Shown: piece by piece, positions 2,555 to 9,500 of the stretch
Numbering within the stretch: position 1 is the first letter of the stretch
How the letters are laid out: each line of letters starts with the position of its first letter
Assembly: GCA_021851865.1 (NCBI GenBank)
Contig: JAJZBU010000007.1
Coordinates: 1 to 64,000, forward strand
Direction: 5' to 3'
DNA length: 64,000 nucleotides
Source of the DNA: Pseudomonadota bacterium
GTDB taxonomy: Bacteria; Pseudomonadota; Gammaproteobacteria; Pseudomonadales; Moraxellaceae
Position numbers and translations under genes: made by a program
Notes under the pieces: generated by a model
Seen by the model: only the letters and a program-made list of their open reading frames with translations
Told to the model about the DNA's origin: nothing
Databases searched by the model: none

Positions 2555-3526
2555 ATGATGAAAGAACATCCTTTTGCCGAGTTTTTGCGTATTTTGGGCA
2601 AGGGCCGCCACGGCCACCGTGACCTCGAGCGCGATGAAGCCGAGCGGGCGATGCGTATGCTCCTTGAGGAGCAGGTCGATCCCGTGCAGGTGGGTGCCTT
2701 TCTCATGCTGCTGCGTGTCAAGGGCGAGTCGGTGGATGAACTGGCCGGGATGCTGCTGGCCGCGCGCGCGTCCTTGCCGGTGAGCGATCTTGAGTTTGAT
2801 CTCGACTGGCCCGCCTACGCTGGCAAGCGCCGGCACCTGCCCTGGTATCTTCTCGCGGCACGAGTGCTGGCGCAGCAGGGCGTGCGTATCCTGCTGCATA
2901 CGGCGTCCGTTGAAGATCGCCTGCAAGTGCACGATCTGATCGACACCTTGCATTTGCCCTGGGCGACCCATTGGGGTGAACTCGCCGCCCAGGTCGACGC
3001 GCATGCCTGGGCCTGCATCGACCTGGCCACGATCCAGCCGCGCTTGGCGCAGATGCTCCAGTTGCGCGCTCTGCTCGGCGTGCGTTCACCGCTACATTCG
3101 CTGGTGCGTCTGCTCAACCCTGGCCGTGCTGCGGCGATGCTGGTGCCCATCTTCCATCCGGCTTATCGCGAGACGCATCGTGCCGTGTTGCAGTCCCTGC
3201 AGCAGCCCTGTGCCTTCGTGTTCAAGGGCGAGGGCGGAGAGGCGGAACGTAATCCCGATGCTCTACTTAGGATCAGCGCTACCCACTCAGGACAACCCTG
3301 GGATGGGCAGTGGCCGGCCTTGTTTGAGCAACGGCATGCCAGTGAAGAGTCCCTCGATCCGCGGCGTCTGGAAGACTTATGGCGGGGCGATAGCGTCGAT
3401 GAATACGCCACCGCCGCCGTCTGTGGCACCTTGGCGATCGCCCTGTTCTGCCTTGGCCGCGCCACAGATGAAGTGACGGCGCATGAACTGGCGCGGCATT
3501 ACTGGCAGCAGCGACAGATCTACTGA
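2555..3526 (+). CDS. TrpD2/YbiB-like glycosyltransferase-family protein
   Basis: A 323-residue protein of the anthranilate phosphoribosyltransferase fold, YbiB/TrpD2 branch. The N-terminal helical domain reads DEAERAMRMLLEEQVDPVQVGAFLMLLRVKGES, the typical start of this fold, and the nucleoside phosphorylase-like domain follows. YbiB is not a tryptophan enzyme; the E. coli protein binds nucleic acids. The glycine-rich phosphoribosyl-diphosphate loop of true TrpD is not apparent; the equivalent region reads HTASVEDR. It starts 5 bases after tusE, so it is the last gene of the tus operon, a pairing also found in other gammaproteobacteria. Its 3' end overlaps the convergent DUF5666 gene by 7 bases. 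Confidence 0.78.
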   Translation: MMKEHPFAEFLRILGKGRHGHRDLERDEAERAMRMLLEEQVDPVQVGAFLMLLRVKGESVDELAGMLLAARASLPVSDLEFDLDWPAYAGKRRHLPWYLLAARVLAQQGVRILLHTASVEDRLQVHDLIDTLHLPWATHWGELAAQVDAHAWACIDLATIQPRLAQMLQLRALLGVRSPLHSLVRLLNPGRAAAMLVPIFHPAYRETHRAVLQSLQQPCAFVFKGEGGEAERNPDALLRISATHSGQPWDGQWPALFEQRHASEESLDPRRLEDLWRGDSVDEYATAAVCGTLAIALFCLGRATDEVTAHELARHYWQQRQIY

Positions 3527-5100
3527 TCGATGCTGACACTCTGTGCCAAGTGCGGCAAGCTGGTGCTGAACTCAACTTCGACGTTGCTGCCGTCACTCAG
3601 GCTGCCGCCTCCGACCTGAACACCATTGAGCTGGATGGTCAGGTTGTTGATCATAAAGCTACCCTGGGTCGGATCGTAGTTGTAGATCGCTCCTTGCGTC
3701 AGCAGGACCTGGCTACTGGTGCTTGGGGCGAGTGTCGGACTGATGCTGTTGACCACATACGTGCCATCGCTTTGCAACTGGGCTTCGACATTGAGGTAGT
3801 TGCCGGGGGTGAGGCTGCTCAGGTTGCTGCCTTCGACGACGAGGTGGCTGGACAGTTGCATGGGCAGGCTTTGGCCGGCGTTGGAGACCGATATTCTGTT
3901 CTGGGGGATATCGATCGATTGCAGACTACCGCTGAAATCGATGATGGCCAGGGGCGGTGCCTGAGTCAGGACCTGTATCTGGGTGGCTTGCAGAATATTG
4001 CCCTGCACGTTGCCGTGGATGATGACGAAGGCGCCATTACCCATGAGGGACGTGCCACTGATCGTCGCTTGACTGGCATCGACACTGACGCCGCGGACGG
4101 TGAAGCTGCTCATGCCGACATAGTGGGTGATGCTGCCTTTGAGAACGGGCATGAGATCAAGAGCGTGCAGTGACTTCAGGCTCTGCGCCTGCACTTGCTG
4201 CTGACTGATGGTGCCCTGAACCTGCACGAAGTCGCCATTTTGCACCCCCTGGCTGAGGCTGCCGGCGTTGACGCTGATGCCTTGCAGCATGAGGGAGCCG
4301 CCTTGTAGACCATAGACGACGCCGCCTAGGGTCATGTTCGTGCTGCCGGCATCGGGCGTGTAGACATGGATGGTATCGACCAATCCGGTCGCTGAGGCGG
4401 CGTGCAGGGTGACCAGTTCGCCGACCTGCAAGCTGGTGCCGGACGGATGGATGGCCAGGGTTCCGCTGAGGTTGACTGGAGCGCTTTGGCCATAGAGTTG
4501 CAGGCTCGCAGCCTGGATCGATTGGATGCGACCGGTCCACAGATGGGCTCCTGCCAGATCGCGCAGAGTGATGCGCGAGGCCAGCAGATAAGGGCCCTGG
4601 GCGTCTTCGCCATAACTGCCGTAGATGACGACGGACTGTTGCAATTGCAGGCCGGAAAAGTCAGGAACGCCGCGATAGGTGGTCATCGGTCCGTTGCCCT
4701 GCGGCGTGCTGATGGTCAGGATGCGCATGCCGTCAACAAGGAAACTTTTTTGACTGCTGTCGATACCATTGATCAGCCCGGCGGCTTGCGCCTGAATGGC
4801 AACCGAGATGACTTGTCCTTGAGAGTCGAAGCGCAGGTTGACCTGGTGTCCCAGATGCAACTGTGTCGCGGCGATGGTGGTGGCGATGCCACTGGCGTCG
4901 GTGCGTGAAAAAGAGGCTTGCGCGGCATCGAATTCCTGCTGATCGTCGAGAACGATGCTGGCGAGGCCGATCACCGGACCTGCTGCGCTGCCGGTGCCGC
5001 CGGAACCCACACCGGAGCTGGCGATGCCGCCGCCACCACAGGCGGCGAGCAGGCAATAAAGTGTGAAGAGGATTGCAGAACGCAGCATCCTGATCTTCAT
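3520..5100 (-). CDS. DUF5666 repeat lipoprotein
   Basis: A 526-residue predicted lipoprotein. The signal peptide is residues 1-20 with lipobox LAAC (Cys21), followed by a glycine/serine-rich tether. The rest is made of repeated beta-rich modules of about 60-70 residues with the DUF5666 pattern (a strand pair such as GLINGIDSSQKSFLVDG, then VIIHGNVQGN), like small OB-type barrels. The function is unknown; attachment to the inner leaflet of the outer membrane or the cell surface is inferred. The start overlaps the stop of the DUF6502 gene by 4 bases (ATGA), so the two form an operon. A second operon of lipoproteins runs divergently. Confidence 0.8.
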   Translation of the reverse strand: MKIRMLRSAILFTLYCLLAACGGGGIASSGVGSGGTGSAAGPVIGLASIVLDDQQEFDAAQASFSRTDASGIATTIAATQLHLGHQVNLRFDSQGQVISVAIQAQAAGLINGIDSSQKSFLVDGMRILTISTPQGNGPMTTYRGVPDFSGLQLQQSVVIYGSYGEDAQGPYLLASRITLRDLAGAHLWTGRIQSIQAASLQLYGQSAPVNLSGTLAIHPSGTSLQVGELVTLHAASATGLVDTIHVYTPDAGSTNMTLGGVVYGLQGGSLMLQGISVNAGSLSQGVQNGDFVQVQGTISQQQVQAQSLKSLHALDLMPVLKGSITHYVGMSSFTVRGVSVDASQATISGTSLMGNGAFVIIHGNVQGNILQATQIQVLTQAPPLAIIDFSGSLQSIDIPQNRISVSNAGQSLPMQLSSHLVVEGSNLSSLTPGNYLNVEAQLQSDGTYVVNSISPTLAPSTSSQVLLTQGAIYNYDPTQGSFMINNLTIQLNGVQVGGGSLSDGSNVEVEFSTSLPHLAQSVSIDQ

Positions 5101-5900
5101 GATGAAATCTCTTGATGGTAGAAATAGCTGGAAAAGCGCATGCGATAGCGTTTTTCCCCGGGCGGGAGTTGCTGGTCGCGTTCGTGACAGTGACTGGCAA
5201 GACGGAGCATGGCTTGGTGCGCTTGTTGCCAGAGCTGGCGCGAGAGGGCATCGAGCTCAGCGATGGAGGCTTGGCTCAGCGGCTCGGCAAAGACACCTTG
5301 TTCGAGATGGCAAGGGCCAAGGCGCAGATTTTCGACGACAGCAGCCACGTGATCGGCGAGATTGCCGGTCAACATGCTCCAGGCCTCAGCGCTGTCGGCG
5401 GGCGGAATGAAAGTGTCGCGCAGGCGACGCACCTGATCGCCTTGCGCGTCGCATTCAAGTTCGACCAGACGCAAGCGGATCAGCTCATTGAGCAGGCTGT
5501 GCGGATGCACGTCGCGGCTGACGCTTTGCACCAGGGCTTCGAAGCTGCCGGTGCTGCCATGCCGTGGCAGGGTGGCGGCGGCAAAGCGCGGATCGTGCAG
5601 CCAGCGCGAAAAAACCTGGTTGGCCAGACTCGGTCCCTGGCGGGAGGGCAGTTGCTGGGCGTGTTCGCGCCAACGCCGGACGTCTTTGCGGTGGACGCCG
5701 CTGATGAGGCTGAGCGCTGAATCGGTGACGCGCAGCTGACGGAGCTGTAGCTGTGCGTAGGCCGCCTGCAGCAGCCAGTCTTTCAAGCGCTCCTGCAGCA
5801 CGCCATAGGCGACGCCTTGGTCGAGCAACCAGTCCAGCCAAGGACGCAGCACGGCGGCGCTGGTCTCGAGGACGGCTTCACTGGAGGAGGGCTCAGTCAT
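5097..5900 (-). CDS. DUF6502 family protein, possible DNA-binding regulator
   Basis: A 267-residue soluble protein with the DUF6502 signature. Near residues 58-78 the segment VTDSALSLISGVHRKDVRRW has the spacing of a helix-turn-helix, and the C-terminal part (about residues 100-260) is helical. The start at 5900 is chosen because the open frame upstream runs through the divergent promoter. It is the first gene of an operon with the DUF5666 lipoprotein and is divergent from the DUF4382 lipoprotein operon; a perfect 17-bp palindrome lies 60 bases upstream, inside the divergent promoter. I infer, without proof, that it may regulate both operons. No enzyme motif was seen. Confidence 0.72.
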   Translation of the reverse strand: MTEPSSSEAVLETSAAVLRPWLDWLLDQGVAYGVLQERLKDWLLQAAYAQLQLRQLRVTDSALSLISGVHRKDVRRWREHAQQLPSRQGPSLANQVFSRWLHDPRFAAATLPRHGSTGSFEALVQSVSRDVHPHSLLNELIRLRLVELECDAQGDQVRRLRDTFIPPADSAEAWSMLTGNLADHVAAVVENLRLGPCHLEQGVFAEPLSQASIAELDALSRQLWQQAHQAMLRLASHCHERDQQLPPGEKRYRMRFSSYFYHQEISS

Positions 5901-5954
5901 GACAGAAGCTCTGTTTGAGTCGCTATGAAGGGATCTTATCACGTTTGAAAATAT

Positions 5955-5983
5955 TTGACATGGGAAAATTTCCCATTCATGAT
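5955..5983 (+). promoter_or_regulatory. Sigma70 promoter with a perfect palindrome in its spacer
   Basis: A consensus -35 TTGACA at 5955-5960 is followed after exactly 17 bases by CATGAT at 5978-5983 (4 of 6 -10 bases). The perfect palindrome ATGGGAAAATTTCCCAT (5960-5976) fills the spacer. A protein bound there would block RNA polymerase, so it is a strong operator candidate. It lies between the DUF6502 operon (minus) and the DUF4382 operon (plus) and could act on both. Confidence 0.72.
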
Positions 5984-6101
5984 GAGGCCGTGTGATGCAA
6001 GGATCGGTCGGGCATGGTGCTCGGTGGCTTGCATCGGAGCGCGGGCGCCGTCGGACAGGAAGGCGCTGGGCGATCATGGCGATCATGAAAGGAGCGAGAA
6101 C

Positions 6102-7853
6102 ATGAAAGAAGTACCGGCGAAGGATCTCTATGGATGGCGGTTTTCGTGGCAGAAAAATATGCAGCATCTGCGCAAGCAGCGAGGCGTCTTGCTGGTGGGG
6201 GGGATGTCGGCACTTCTGGTCGCTTGTGGCGGAGGAAGTTCGGGTTCCGCGTCACCCGTGGGGTCGAGCACTGCGGCGGTGCAGCTGACGGATGCTCCTG
6301 GTGATTTTAGTCACGTATGGGTGACGGTGCGCAAGATTGCCTTTCACAGCAGTGCTACCCAGACCTGGTCAGCTTCTGATTCTACTTGGCAAACCTACAC
6401 CCTGCCGGCGCCGGTGACCCTGGATCTGGCGGCCTTGAGCAATGGTCAACTGCAGAACGTATTCAGTTCCATCCAGCTACCGGTCGGGGTCTATCGGCAG
6501 ATGCGCCTTTTCCTGGACGGACCTGCCAGTGCCCTGGATAGTTCAGCGCAAGCGTTACAGGACTCCAATGGCAATGCCCTGCAATGGAACGATCAGGTCG
6601 AGCGCAATGAAAATGGGCAGTGGGTGGAATATTCCCTCAATGTTCCCTTCGCCGCCGCCGGGATTCGTTTGGGCGGCACCTTCAATGTGGCCGCTGGCAG
6701 CAACCTCAACCTGGCCGTCGACATCAACCTGAACAAATCCATCGTTGCCTATCATCGTGGGCAGAACCGCGGATATATCCTCAATCCCTGGCTGACTTAT
6801 TTTGATATGGCGCAAGTTGGTGCTATTGCTGGGTCTCTCGACCCTTCCCAGTTGTGCCCGCTGAATGGTCAGGGTCAGCCTATGCCCGCGGCGACGTGTG
6901 TCTACAATGTCGTCGTCAAAGCGGAAGCTTTTGACAAGACCCAGAATCGTTACGCTTCCTTGCGTACGACGGTGGTCAGACCCGATGGTACCTTTCTCCT
7001 CTATCCCGTTTCGGTGCAGGACGCCGGTGGCAATACCATTGACTACCATGTGCTGATTCGTGGCCGGAATATGGAAACGATGGTGGTCAAGCACGTGCCC
7101 GTGGTCGCGGGGGCCTCAGCGCAGAGCAATGCCACGCTTCTGCCGCAACTGATGGCGACCGTCAATCCCGGTGAGTATGTGGCGCAGTGGGCCAGCCCGC
7201 TGGCGCCGTTGACCTCAGGCTATGCAGTGTTCATGCAGACCGATCCCAGTGAATCTGCACCCTACTCCGTGCGTTATCGAGCGACGGACCCGAGCACGGG
7301 GACGTATTATGACCCGTTGCCGCTGGAAAACTCAGGCTTGTTGACGGCCACGTACAGCAGTGGCGCGACAGCACTGAACTTTGTTGCGGTCACGCCCAAG
7401 GAAGGGATGGGAAATTACAGTGTTGGTGTCGACGATTTTGGTGATTATCTGATGAACACCAATTTCACCACCTTGCAGGCGCCGGCGACGGGCAGCAGCG
7501 CCATGTTCAGCTTCACGACGCCGCAGGCGGGCAACCAGCAGGCGGGGGCACTCGCCGGCAACCTCGCCATCAGTGCGCAGGTCGCGAGCCAGTATCAGCA
7601 CATGATGCTCTATGTGGCGAATGCGTCGAATGTGCTGACAAGCCAGGACTTGAGCGCTTCTCTAGCGTCATCTTCAGGCAGTATCGCATACTCGGTGAAT
7701 GGGCTGAGCTCGGGTAGTCCATGGAATGTCTATTATGTATACCTTAGGTTGTGGAGTAACACGAATCCGCGTGGCGAGTTGATCGCCCTGCCAGGATTCG
7801 CCAACTTGAGTCAGCAGGCGACGGCAACGTTAAATGGAACTATTGCTCACTAG
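6102..7853 (+). CDS. DUF4382 domain lipoprotein
   Basis: A 583-residue predicted lipoprotein with lipobox LVAC (Cys42) after a long N-region; the ATG at 6102 has AAAGGAG 7 bases upstream. Residues ~55-210 form the DUF4382 domain, recognisable from VQLTDAPGDFSHVWVTVRKIAFHS at its start, a carbohydrate-binding-like beta fold. Further beta-sandwich-like segments follow (about 250-350 and 380-580), with no catalytic motif that I recognise. The gene begins about 118 bases after the palindromic promoter and is followed 12 bases later by another lipoprotein gene, so they form an operon. A role at the cell surface is inferred only. Confidence 0.8.
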   Translation: MKEVPAKDLYGWRFSWQKNMQHLRKQRGVLLVGGMSALLVACGGGSSGSASPVGSSTAAVQLTDAPGDFSHVWVTVRKIAFHSSATQTWSASDSTWQTYTLPAPVTLDLAALSNGQLQNVFSSIQLPVGVYRQMRLFLDGPASALDSSAQALQDSNGNALQWNDQVERNENGQWVEYSLNVPFAAAGIRLGGTFNVAAGSNLNLAVDINLNKSIVAYHRGQNRGYILNPWLTYFDMAQVGAIAGSLDPSQLCPLNGQGQPMPAATCVYNVVVKAEAFDKTQNRYASLRTTVVRPDGTFLLYPVSVQDAGGNTIDYHVLIRGRNMETMVVKHVPVVAGASAQSNATLLPQLMATVNPGEYVAQWASPLAPLTSGYAVFMQTDPSESAPYSVRYRATDPSTGTYYDPLPLENSGLLTATYSSGATALNFVAVTPKEGMGNYSVGVDDFGDYLMNTNFTTLQAPATGSSAMFSFTTPQAGNQQAGALAGNLAISAQVASQYQHMMLYVANASNVLTSQDLSASLASSSGSIAYSVNGLSSGSPWNVYYVYLRLWSNTNPRGELIALPGFANLSQQATATLNGTIAH

Positions 7854-7865
7854 AGGACTTATGCC

Positions 7866-9500
7866 ATGACGACACAGCAAATGTCGGTGCAAAAAAAAGC
7901 TGATTCACGATCAGCGATCTTCAAATTCAGCTGTTTCGGCCTGGCGATGAGCATGGCCTTGGTGGGTTGCGGTGGCAGCGGCGGTGGTGGCTCTTCTGCG
8001 GGAGGCAGCAGCAGTCTCTCCGGCGCCGTCATTGACGCCGCCATCCCAGGCGCACAGGTGACGATCACGCTCAATGCGCCGCTTGGGCAGTCGGGGGCAC
8101 AGACGATCGGCAGCATCAGCGCCGATGCGCAAGGTCAGTTCACGGTCAATGTTGCCTTGCCCAACACGAACGCTCCGGTTTTTGCCAATGCCAGTGATCC
8201 TGCTCACCCGAGCACGGTGTTGAGCAGCTATCTCGGTGTCGCGAGCCAGTTGCTGGCAGCGGGGACGCTGAGTTCATCGCAGCTGCCTGATCTCGACATC
8301 ACCCAGGTGACGACGGCAGCCCTGGCCTTGTACGCCAGTCAGAATGGCGGTAGCTATGCCTCCTTGACGCCTGCGACCTACGGCAACCTGTTGAACGCAC
8401 ACCGCGACGACATTCTACCGCTGGCGGCCGGCATTCAGGCGGTGGTCGATGGTCATTGCGGCATGCCGGCGGGCATCTTGCATACGGATGATCTCGCCGA
8501 TGCCATCATCAAGGCGAGCACGCTCGCAGGTGGCTCTTCGGGCGTGCTGAGCGCGACCGCGACGATGATGGGGGGGTCCTGTCAGGCGACCTTGCAGAAC
8601 CTGATGCAGAGCATCGCCGCCAACAGCATCTGGGCACCACAGATGGAGAGCAATGATCTCACCAGCCAGACCCTGGTGCCGGCCGGCAGCTATGACTTGC
8701 AGGGGGTGCTGGCGCAGATGAGCGCTTACGCCGCCGGCACCAGTTCGGCCAGCGTCGCTCTGCCTGCGCCGGAAGTCTTTCATGATGCGCAGATCCAGGT
8801 GAGCAGTACGGGACAAGTCACCTCGACCGATGGTCTGGTCAGTGGCCAGATTCAGGGACATTTTCTGCAGTTGACCCTGACGGACAGCAGCGGTCAGTCC
8901 TATGCCATCGGTGGACATTTGGCGCCCCTGCCGAGCACCGAGGTGAACGGTCCAGCGGTGGTGTATTCCCTGCGCAGCGGTGGCAGCAGTCAGAGCTCCA
9001 ATCAACCGGCGCGATTTGACGCCGTCCTGGTTCCAGCCGGCGAAACGCCGCTGTGGACGGGATTGAACAACAGCAGTGATCAGGGTGTCGCCTGCAGCAC
9101 CGGCTTTGGTGTGCGCATGATGACCATGGGGCCGACCATCGGCGGTATTTCCGCGGGTATCTGCGTGTTGCCATCGGCGACGGGTCTGACCTTGACCCCG
9201 GCTACCGGCAGCATCAGCAATCAGGAGGACAGCTTGTTGAGCATGCCGTCGTCGTTGACGTCCCTGTTCACCGCGATTCAGCTGTCTGAAGTGTTGCTGC
9301 CAGGCAGTGCGGTGTCGAGTACCCCCTTCATCCTCTCGGCGCAGGCGGCGATGACGACACCGACTGTCAGCGGTCAGGGCGCGCTCTACTACGTCATGGG
9401 GGCGGACGACGTGCTGTTTCAGGTCAGTACTGCGGCGATGACGCTCAACGGCTCCTTGCTGGTCAGTAACCAAAATCTCGGCGATCTCATCGACCACTAG
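7866..9500 (+). CDS. Lipoprotein of unknown function, 544 residues
   Basis: A predicted lipoprotein with lipobox LVGC (Cys35), then a Gly/Ser-rich tether (about residues 36-50). After it, residues ~50-100 resemble a carboxypeptidase-regulatory-like beta domain (LSGAVIDAAIPGAQVTITL), as in many surface lipoproteins. Residues ~110-260 are helical and the rest beta-rich. I do not recognise the family. It lies 12 bases after the DUF4382 gene on the same strand and is surely cotranscribed. A perfect 11-bp hairpin follows its stop. Two cysteines in the middle region (near GHCGMPAG and GGSCQATL) could form a disulfide. Confidence 0.72.
   Translation: MTTQQMSVQKKADSRSAIFKFSCFGLAMSMALVGCGGSGGGGSSAGGSSSLSGAVIDAAIPGAQVTITLNAPLGQSGAQTIGSISADAQGQFTVNVALPNTNAPVFANASDPAHPSTVLSSYLGVASQLLAAGTLSSSQLPDLDITQVTTAALALYASQNGGSYASLTPATYGNLLNAHRDDILPLAAGIQAVVDGHCGMPAGILHTDDLADAIIKASTLAGGSSGVLSATATMMGGSCQATLQNLMQSIAANSIWAPQMESNDLTSQTLVPAGSYDLQGVLAQMSAYAAGTSSASVALPAPEVFHDAQIQVSSTGQVTSTDGLVSGQIQGHFLQLTLTDSSGQSYAIGGHLAPLPSTEVNGPAVVYSLRSGGSSQSSNQPARFDAVLVPAGETPLWTGLNNSSDQGVACSTGFGVRMMTMGPTIGGISAGICVLPSATGLTLTPATGSISNQEDSLLSMPSSLTSLFTAIQLSEVLLPGSAVSSTPFILSAQAAMTTPTVSGQGALYYVMGADDVLFQVSTAAMTLNGSLLVSNQNLGDLIDH

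Follow-up and report, generated by a model that had tools for sequence, protein, structure and literature searches.

A perfect 17-bp palindrome lies between two divergent lipoprotein operons in the 64,000-nucleotide stretch of DNA analysed here (the window). We propose, with a probability of roughly 80 %, that DUF6502, the protein encoded beside it, is an autoregulated dimeric repressor and that the palindrome is its operator, through which both operons would be silenced; this reading is drawn from sequence comparison and structural models. A DUF6502 homodimer would read the two GGGA half-sites with its helix-turn-helix (HTH) and, once bound, would cover the whole spacer between the -35 and -10 hexamers of the DUF4382 promoter together with the -35 region of the divergent DUF6502 promoter, which would shut RNA polymerase out of both. 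The outcome would be a negatively autoregulated switch over two lipoprotein operons, and some signal would release DUF6502 from the operator. We infer dimerisation, binding, repression rather than activation and the release by a signal; negative autoregulation combined with co-repression of lipoprotein operons is the simplest reading.

If the proposal holds, DUF6502, named in Pfam (PF20112) as a family of unknown function, would gain a proposed function and a DNA target. The arrangement also points to a single regulon for DUF4382 and DUF5666 lipoproteins. In many Proteobacteria, the DUF6502 family probably switches off its own gene and neighbouring genes.

Anatomy of the intergenic site

The features on which the proposal is built are listed by their positions in the window.

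3520..5100, minus strand: DUF5666 lipoprotein, second gene of the DUF6502 operon (4-bp overlap with DUF6502)
5097..5900, minus strand: DUF6502 protein of 267 aa, proposed dimeric DNA-binding autoregulator (PF20112; model pLDDT 87)
5661..5723, minus strand: predicted helix-turn-helix of DUF6502, residues 60-80 (G68, H70, R71, K72, D73 and V74 invariant in 81 sequences)
5933..5938, minus strand: putative -10 TAAGAT of the DUF6502 promoter (4/6 consensus; 17 bp from ATGTCA)
5956..5961, minus strand: putative -35 ATGTCA of the DUF6502 promoter (by inspection; 4/6 consensus)
5955..5960, plus strand: -35 TTGACA of the DUF4382 promoter (sequence and promoter scan, 10/12)
5960..5976, no strand assigned: operator candidate, perfect 17-bp palindrome ATGGGAAAATTTCCCAT (arms of 8, centre A, GGG-N7-CCC half-sites)
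5961..5977, plus strand: 17-base spacer of the DUF4382 promoter (sequence)
5978..5983, plus strand: -10 CATGAT of the DUF4382 promoter, weak (several relatives have TATAGT here)
6102..7853, plus strand: DUF4382 lipoprotein, first gene behind the operator-bearing promoter (PF14321, 91.3 bits)
7866..9500, plus strand: lipoprotein-like gene, second of the DUF4382 operon (12 bases after the DUF4382 gene)

A first-pass annotation of the window had described TTGACA and CATGAT at a distance of 17 bases with the palindrome filling the spacer, and its letters and coordinates were confirmed, only the last A of the -35 being common to palindrome and hexamer. On the minus strand, the putative -35 ATGTCA overlaps both the plus-strand -35 and the edge of the operator, and TGA precedes the putative -10 TAAGAT (extended -10). 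The minus-strand combination ATGTCA-17-TAAGAT was absent from the promoter scan output for 3000-9000. The product of 7866-9500 gave no Pfam match above cut-off. PADLOC returned no match.

Taken singly, palindrome and promoter are each ordinary. The window holds eight perfect palindromes with arms of at least 8 and 0-2 central bases, two of which are merely extensions of others, where 20 first-order Markov sequences gave 4.9 on average. Promoter-like sites scoring at least 10/12 numbered seven in 64 kb, and the scan of 3000-9000 found one versus 2.1 in shuffled sequences. What exceeds chance is the exact overlap of palindrome and promoter together with its recurrence in relatives, and since such palindromes are not rare alone, the weight of the finding lies in the comparison with relatives. 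Within the 2.44-Mb genome from which the window comes, the palindrome at 5960-5976 is the sole copy at up to two mismatches, the next copy having three. A further TGGGAN5TCCCA in this genome (contig C42) falls within open frames and was taken as a chance occurrence rather than a real site.

A search of the text of papers, mostly from outside subscription journals, found neither DUF6502, PF20112 nor the letters of the operator. Over the same range, the earlier remark that no described operator of this sequence is known came out the same way.

Recurrence beside DUF6502

The case made in the first-pass annotation hinged in part on whether close relatives that retain the locus also keep the palindrome, and both genomes of the same genus have the two. 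G002 carries the exact palindrome at its DUF6502 locus. G001 carries two copies at DUF6502, with one mismatch each. A third copy, which is exact, stands at an unlinked DUF4382 gene whose product shares 38 % identity with the DUF4382 protein of the window over 513 aa; there the palindrome again lies in a promoter spacer (TTTACA-17-TAGACT). The DUF6502 contig of G001 combines the two copies with a divergently oriented gene that is a 64 % identical homologue of 7866-9500, and DUF4382 is on another contig. In G001 the operator follows the lipoprotein gene, as expected for the target of a trans-acting protein. A counter-example is the second DUF4382 lipoprotein gene of the window's own genome (L246, contig C51, 2001-3743), which has no operator-like site, the best candidate showing four mismatches.

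The exact G001 site at a gene unlinked to DUF6502 would also suit a different explanation, namely that another regulator owns the operator and DUF6502 is merely one of its targets, which we consider quite unlikely. It is favoured, too, by the several DUF6502 genes that are without the motif and by the fact that binding by DUF6502 is only inferred. The distribution of copies across genomes argues against it. DUF6502 occurs in 15 of 97 genomes, the window's own genome counted in. Copies with 0-1 mismatches occur in nine of the 97, and six of these nine are among the 15 with DUF6502, leaving three among the 82 without it. In two of the latter three (G057 and G077) the copy is inside a gene; in G025 it is between genes.

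A GGG-N7-CCC palindrome precedes DUF6502 in the window's genome and in seven family relatives of this locus type (G001, G002, G004, G005, G019, G020 and G030); another five DUF6502 loci within the family (L040, L042, L044, L047 and L051) showed none. Further families of the order likewise have the motif, GGG-N7-CCC around an A/T-rich centre, ahead of DUF6502 genes. At L047 a different palindrome, AAATGTTAAAATTTAACATTT, is situated ~300 bp upstream of the DUF6502 match, the DUF6502 of that genome being without the GGG type.

Across the order, 58 of 390 sampled genomes contain DUF6502. The exact form TGGGAAN3TTCCCA was located at 59 sites in these 390 genomes, 15 of which are just upstream of DUF6502 by hand count and 44 away from it. 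Nine of the 44 were inspected and placed by a reading of the open frames: five are within genes (L091 and L094-L097), and the remainder (L090, L092, L093 and L098) are between genes or at gene edges. L090 is a site in G420 at which TGGGAATATTTCCCA occurs without mismatch (about 3030-3044), immediately ahead of a gene and apart from the DUF6502 gene of that genome.

The DUF6502-DUF4382 link recurs in two families besides that of the window. Genes for DUF4382 lie divergent from a canonical DUF6502 (defined in the next section) at L247, L248 and L249, in G389 and G148 (both f16) and G121 (f22). Other neighbours were noted by eye: in L079-L089 (family f44), DUF6502 is separated from a divergent alpha/beta hydrolase-like gene by one to three operators, and L050, L107 and L103 have three operators and a divergent gene resembling a trypsin-like protease.

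Farther afield, named genomes were searched with a pattern containing HRKD, which yielded at least 575 related stretches. The best 80 of these comprise 56 from Betaproteobacteria (34 Burkholderiales), one from Pseudomonadales (the G020 contig) and 23 not assigned below phylum; six are contigs already among the G genomes, and without them 74 further loci remain. TGGGAN5TCCCA was present in 37 of the 80 regions upstream of DUF6502 (-300..+40) versus six matches in 706,608 bases elsewhere in the same loci, a background from which 0.23 upstream matches are expected. The looser GGGWWN3WWCCC gave 39/80 versus 15 background matches. Four of the six background matches to the stricter form (L126, L128, L170 and L192) precede genes whose products, judged by eye from their N-termini, resemble secreted proteins or lipoproteins. 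Of the 74 further loci, which are mostly betaproteobacterial, 31 have the exact form and 43 are without it.

We also scored these 74 loci with a matrix built from 44 sites of the order to which the window belongs; 944 control windows served for comparison. Fifty-eight loci were at or above the 99th percentile of the controls, some of them with poor matches, and 35 exceeded all controls; 16 stayed below the 99th percentile. Two of three loci titled Ferrovum were among those below, and the third (L158) passed with a poor match. By these counts (37/80, 31/74 and 58/74) the motif occurs at the gene of its proposed regulator beyond background, the counts not being independent events because the loci are related. 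Of the 80 loci, 75 encode a relative of the window's DUF5666 protein, in nearly every case immediately after DUF6502.

Half-site spacing and promoter geometry

Half-site spacing was compared with DUF6502 relationships in 88 loci, made up of 76 of the 79 order-wide rows (one at a contig end and two fragments were left out) and 12 loci from the 97-genome scan alone. A split at E = 1e-40 separated 46 canonical from 42 divergent DUF6502 genes. GGG-N8-CCC preceded 31/46 canonical and 0/42 divergent genes. GGG-N7-CCC preceded 28/42 divergent genes and four of the 46 canonical ones (L034, L060, L064 and L205), all four being readable as N8 too, with a poor match in L060. Other spacings from 3 to 11 reached at most five in either group. 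Of the best 80 among the at least 575 loci, 41 contain TGGG-N7-CCCA, and no other spacing between 3 and 11 was seen in more than three.

We then placed the spacings on a FastTree tree of 125 proteins, consisting of the 88 and every second of the 74 (37 rows). For this purpose the search for N8 was confined to the last 60 bases, a row readable both ways counted as N8, and scoring of the 37 additional rows covered N7 alone. On this tree N7 (44 rows) and N8 (29 rows) need one change, on a branch with a local support of 100; 52 of the 125 rows carry neither spacing and were not counted for this change. The motif variants therefore follow the phylogeny of the proposed regulator, with a single transition between N7 and N8.

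Twelve genomes carry several DUF6502 genes. In G066, G207 and G325, N8 is found at one gene and N7 at another; G081 likewise has N8 and N7 at different DUF6502 genes, though its N8 site is also readable as N7. The other eight have at least one copy without a site. Two spacings distributed by paralogue within one genome would be unlikely to come from a single outside regulator, which points to DUF6502 itself as the reader. We regard this paralogue-specific spacing as the strongest sign that DUF6502 reads the site, and it weighs, with the single step on the tree, against ownership of the operator by another regulator. The earlier suggestion that DUF6502 is the binder is likewise backed by the clade-specific half-site spacing and by the HTH-type domains predicted in structural models. 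The clade-specific N7 and N8 spacings amount to a natural experiment on operator length as determined by dimer geometry.

In canonical DUF6502 genes the N8 site often lies close to the coding sequence. In 27/46 genes it was located in the 30 bases ahead of the chosen start codon. Among 21 loci listed (including L052, L054, L064, L067-L075, L078, L099 and L100), 18 have it at position -18 precisely, and a TATAAT-like core is frequent. Judged from these positions, the operator of canonical DUF6502 genes may enclose the -10 box, and their mRNA may lack a leader.

Promoter geometry was examined at 81 N7 sites from 61 loci, with a promoter threshold of 8/12 and comparison of 17-bp spacers only. On the divergent strand, a promoter was positioned exactly around the palindrome, as in the window, at 23/81 sites, and any other offset occurred at most four times. 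Toward DUF6502, the best offset was seen at 11/81 sites, with the arm TTCCCA serving as -35, and other offsets at most five times. The idea put forward in the first-pass annotation that one bound protein could reach both operons fits the overlapping divergent promoters and the divergent-strand geometry at 23/81 sites, as far as predicted promoters go. A spacer of 17 bp is the optimum for promoters, and an operator that fills such a spacer predicts exclusion of polymerase.

The position within the spacer, together with the weak -10 CATGAT in the window, could instead be taken to mean that DUF6502 activates the DUF4382 promoter from the spacer in the manner of MerR, perhaps repressing only its own promoter. 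MerR-type activators have their operator in an overlong spacer of 19-20 bp. The DUF4382 promoter of the window differs from promoters of such spacer regulators in having a spacer of 17 bp, which is not overlong (relatives were compared at 17-bp spacers only), and we judge activation of this kind improbable. That the palindrome works at the RNA level, as a hairpin or terminator, or is a product of chance is highly improbable: perfect palindromes with arms of 8 are common, as the count of eight versus 4.9 illustrates, but the terminator predictions do not list this one, both predicted transcripts would start beyond it, and many genomes have it again at the equivalent position, with a spacing that depends on the clade. 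Repression by a DUF6502 dimer is the reading we retain.

The DUF6502 protein

The window protein matched the PF20112 profile with 41.3 bits (cut-off 27) over profile positions 8-260 of 268. The stretch G-x-HRKDV is invariant in 81 DUF6502 sequences, an invariance that stems partly from selection because the pattern used to search for relatives includes HRKD. In the AlphaFold model of the window protein (pLDDT 87), helices 60-67 and 71-80 form a predicted HTH; a second unit (120-159) contains two strands, and long C-terminal helices follow. A model of a second DUF6502 member showed a similar plan. Sequence searches for relatives of solved structure gave nothing significant.

Structure comparison of the window model with Foldseek placed HetR in the top five rows (E 3.8e-3 to 9.5e-3) over nearly the whole chain, with TM values of 0.28-0.36 and rmsd of 12.6-13.4. 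VIA aligned the three-domain fold of HetR with 212 residues of the window model (Z 7.5, 10.7 A) and with 216 residues of the second model (Z 6.4, 11.1 A); HetR was the only near whole-chain VIA match among the matches listed. HetR is the cyanobacterial master regulator of heterocysts. In two papers (PMC4192349, PMC4649674), HetR of heterocyst-forming cyanobacteria is described as a dimeric autoregulated factor with an HTH that requires GGG/CCC half-sites, binds a 17-bp inverted repeat strongly and needs GGG-N5-CCC. Measured against that description, the proposed DUF6502 system resembles HetR in its GGG/CCC half-sites, its 17-bp inverted repeat and its proposed HTH dimer, and differs in spacing, DUF6502 genes having N7 or N8 where the HetR operator has N5.

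GGG-N5-CCC within 300 bp was found at 1/46 canonical and 0/42 divergent DUF6502 genes, and TGGG-N5-CCCA at 0/80 of the wider loci, so the HetR spacing is all but absent from these DUF6502 genes. With the HetR side limited to one or two sequences, hhalign of HetR and DUF6502 returned probabilities of 0.1 and 0.3 percent, and in a decoy comparison, again with one or two HetR sequences, 51 of 201 decoys scored as high. A likeness of short HetR and DUF6502 stretches noticed by eye was dropped, as hhalign did not bear it out. HetR relatives for a deeper profile were found neither in plasmids nor in viral contigs, and PF03574 matched neither the window's own genome nor 14 controls, a result with no bearing on absence. 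Foldseek with the second DUF6502 model did not bring up HetR among the best 50 matches listed. Because HetR needs N5, the profiles give no support and the best 50 Foldseek matches listed for the second model are without HetR, we do not class DUF6502 as HetR. That DUF6502 is a widespread proteobacterial HetR relative, a dimer of the same plan that likewise reads GGG/CCC half-sites and in which dimer geometry sets the distances (N5 in HetR, N7 and N8 in the two DUF6502 clades), seems to us unlikely.

At the level of single domains, residues ~33-84 of DUF6502 matched TetR-type HTHs and residues ~90-165 MarR-type or other winged helices, with middling Z values of 6 to 8. The TetR-like HTH fold stayed below the level of a clear match in VIA for both the window model (Z 7.5, 52 residues, 2.0 A versus 5ovy) and the second model (Z 7.1, 55 residues, 2.1 A versus 2of7). 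TetR or MarR models of Pfam and NCBIfam did not match the window protein up to E 0.1. A scan of 81 members to E 10, in the best 25 of 44 families, brought up a TetR C-terminal model as the only TetR model, for one member at E 0.078. Within this range no TetR DNA-binding model was matched, so that sequence gives no support for membership of the TetR family.

Among HTH repressors of the TetR and MarR type there are autoregulated ones with an operator common to divergent genes. The locus described here is like theirs in that a palindromic operator candidate lies over two divergent promoters and adjoins the gene of a predicted HTH protein. Unlike them, DUF6502 in the models joins HTH and winged-helix modules to long C-terminal helices.
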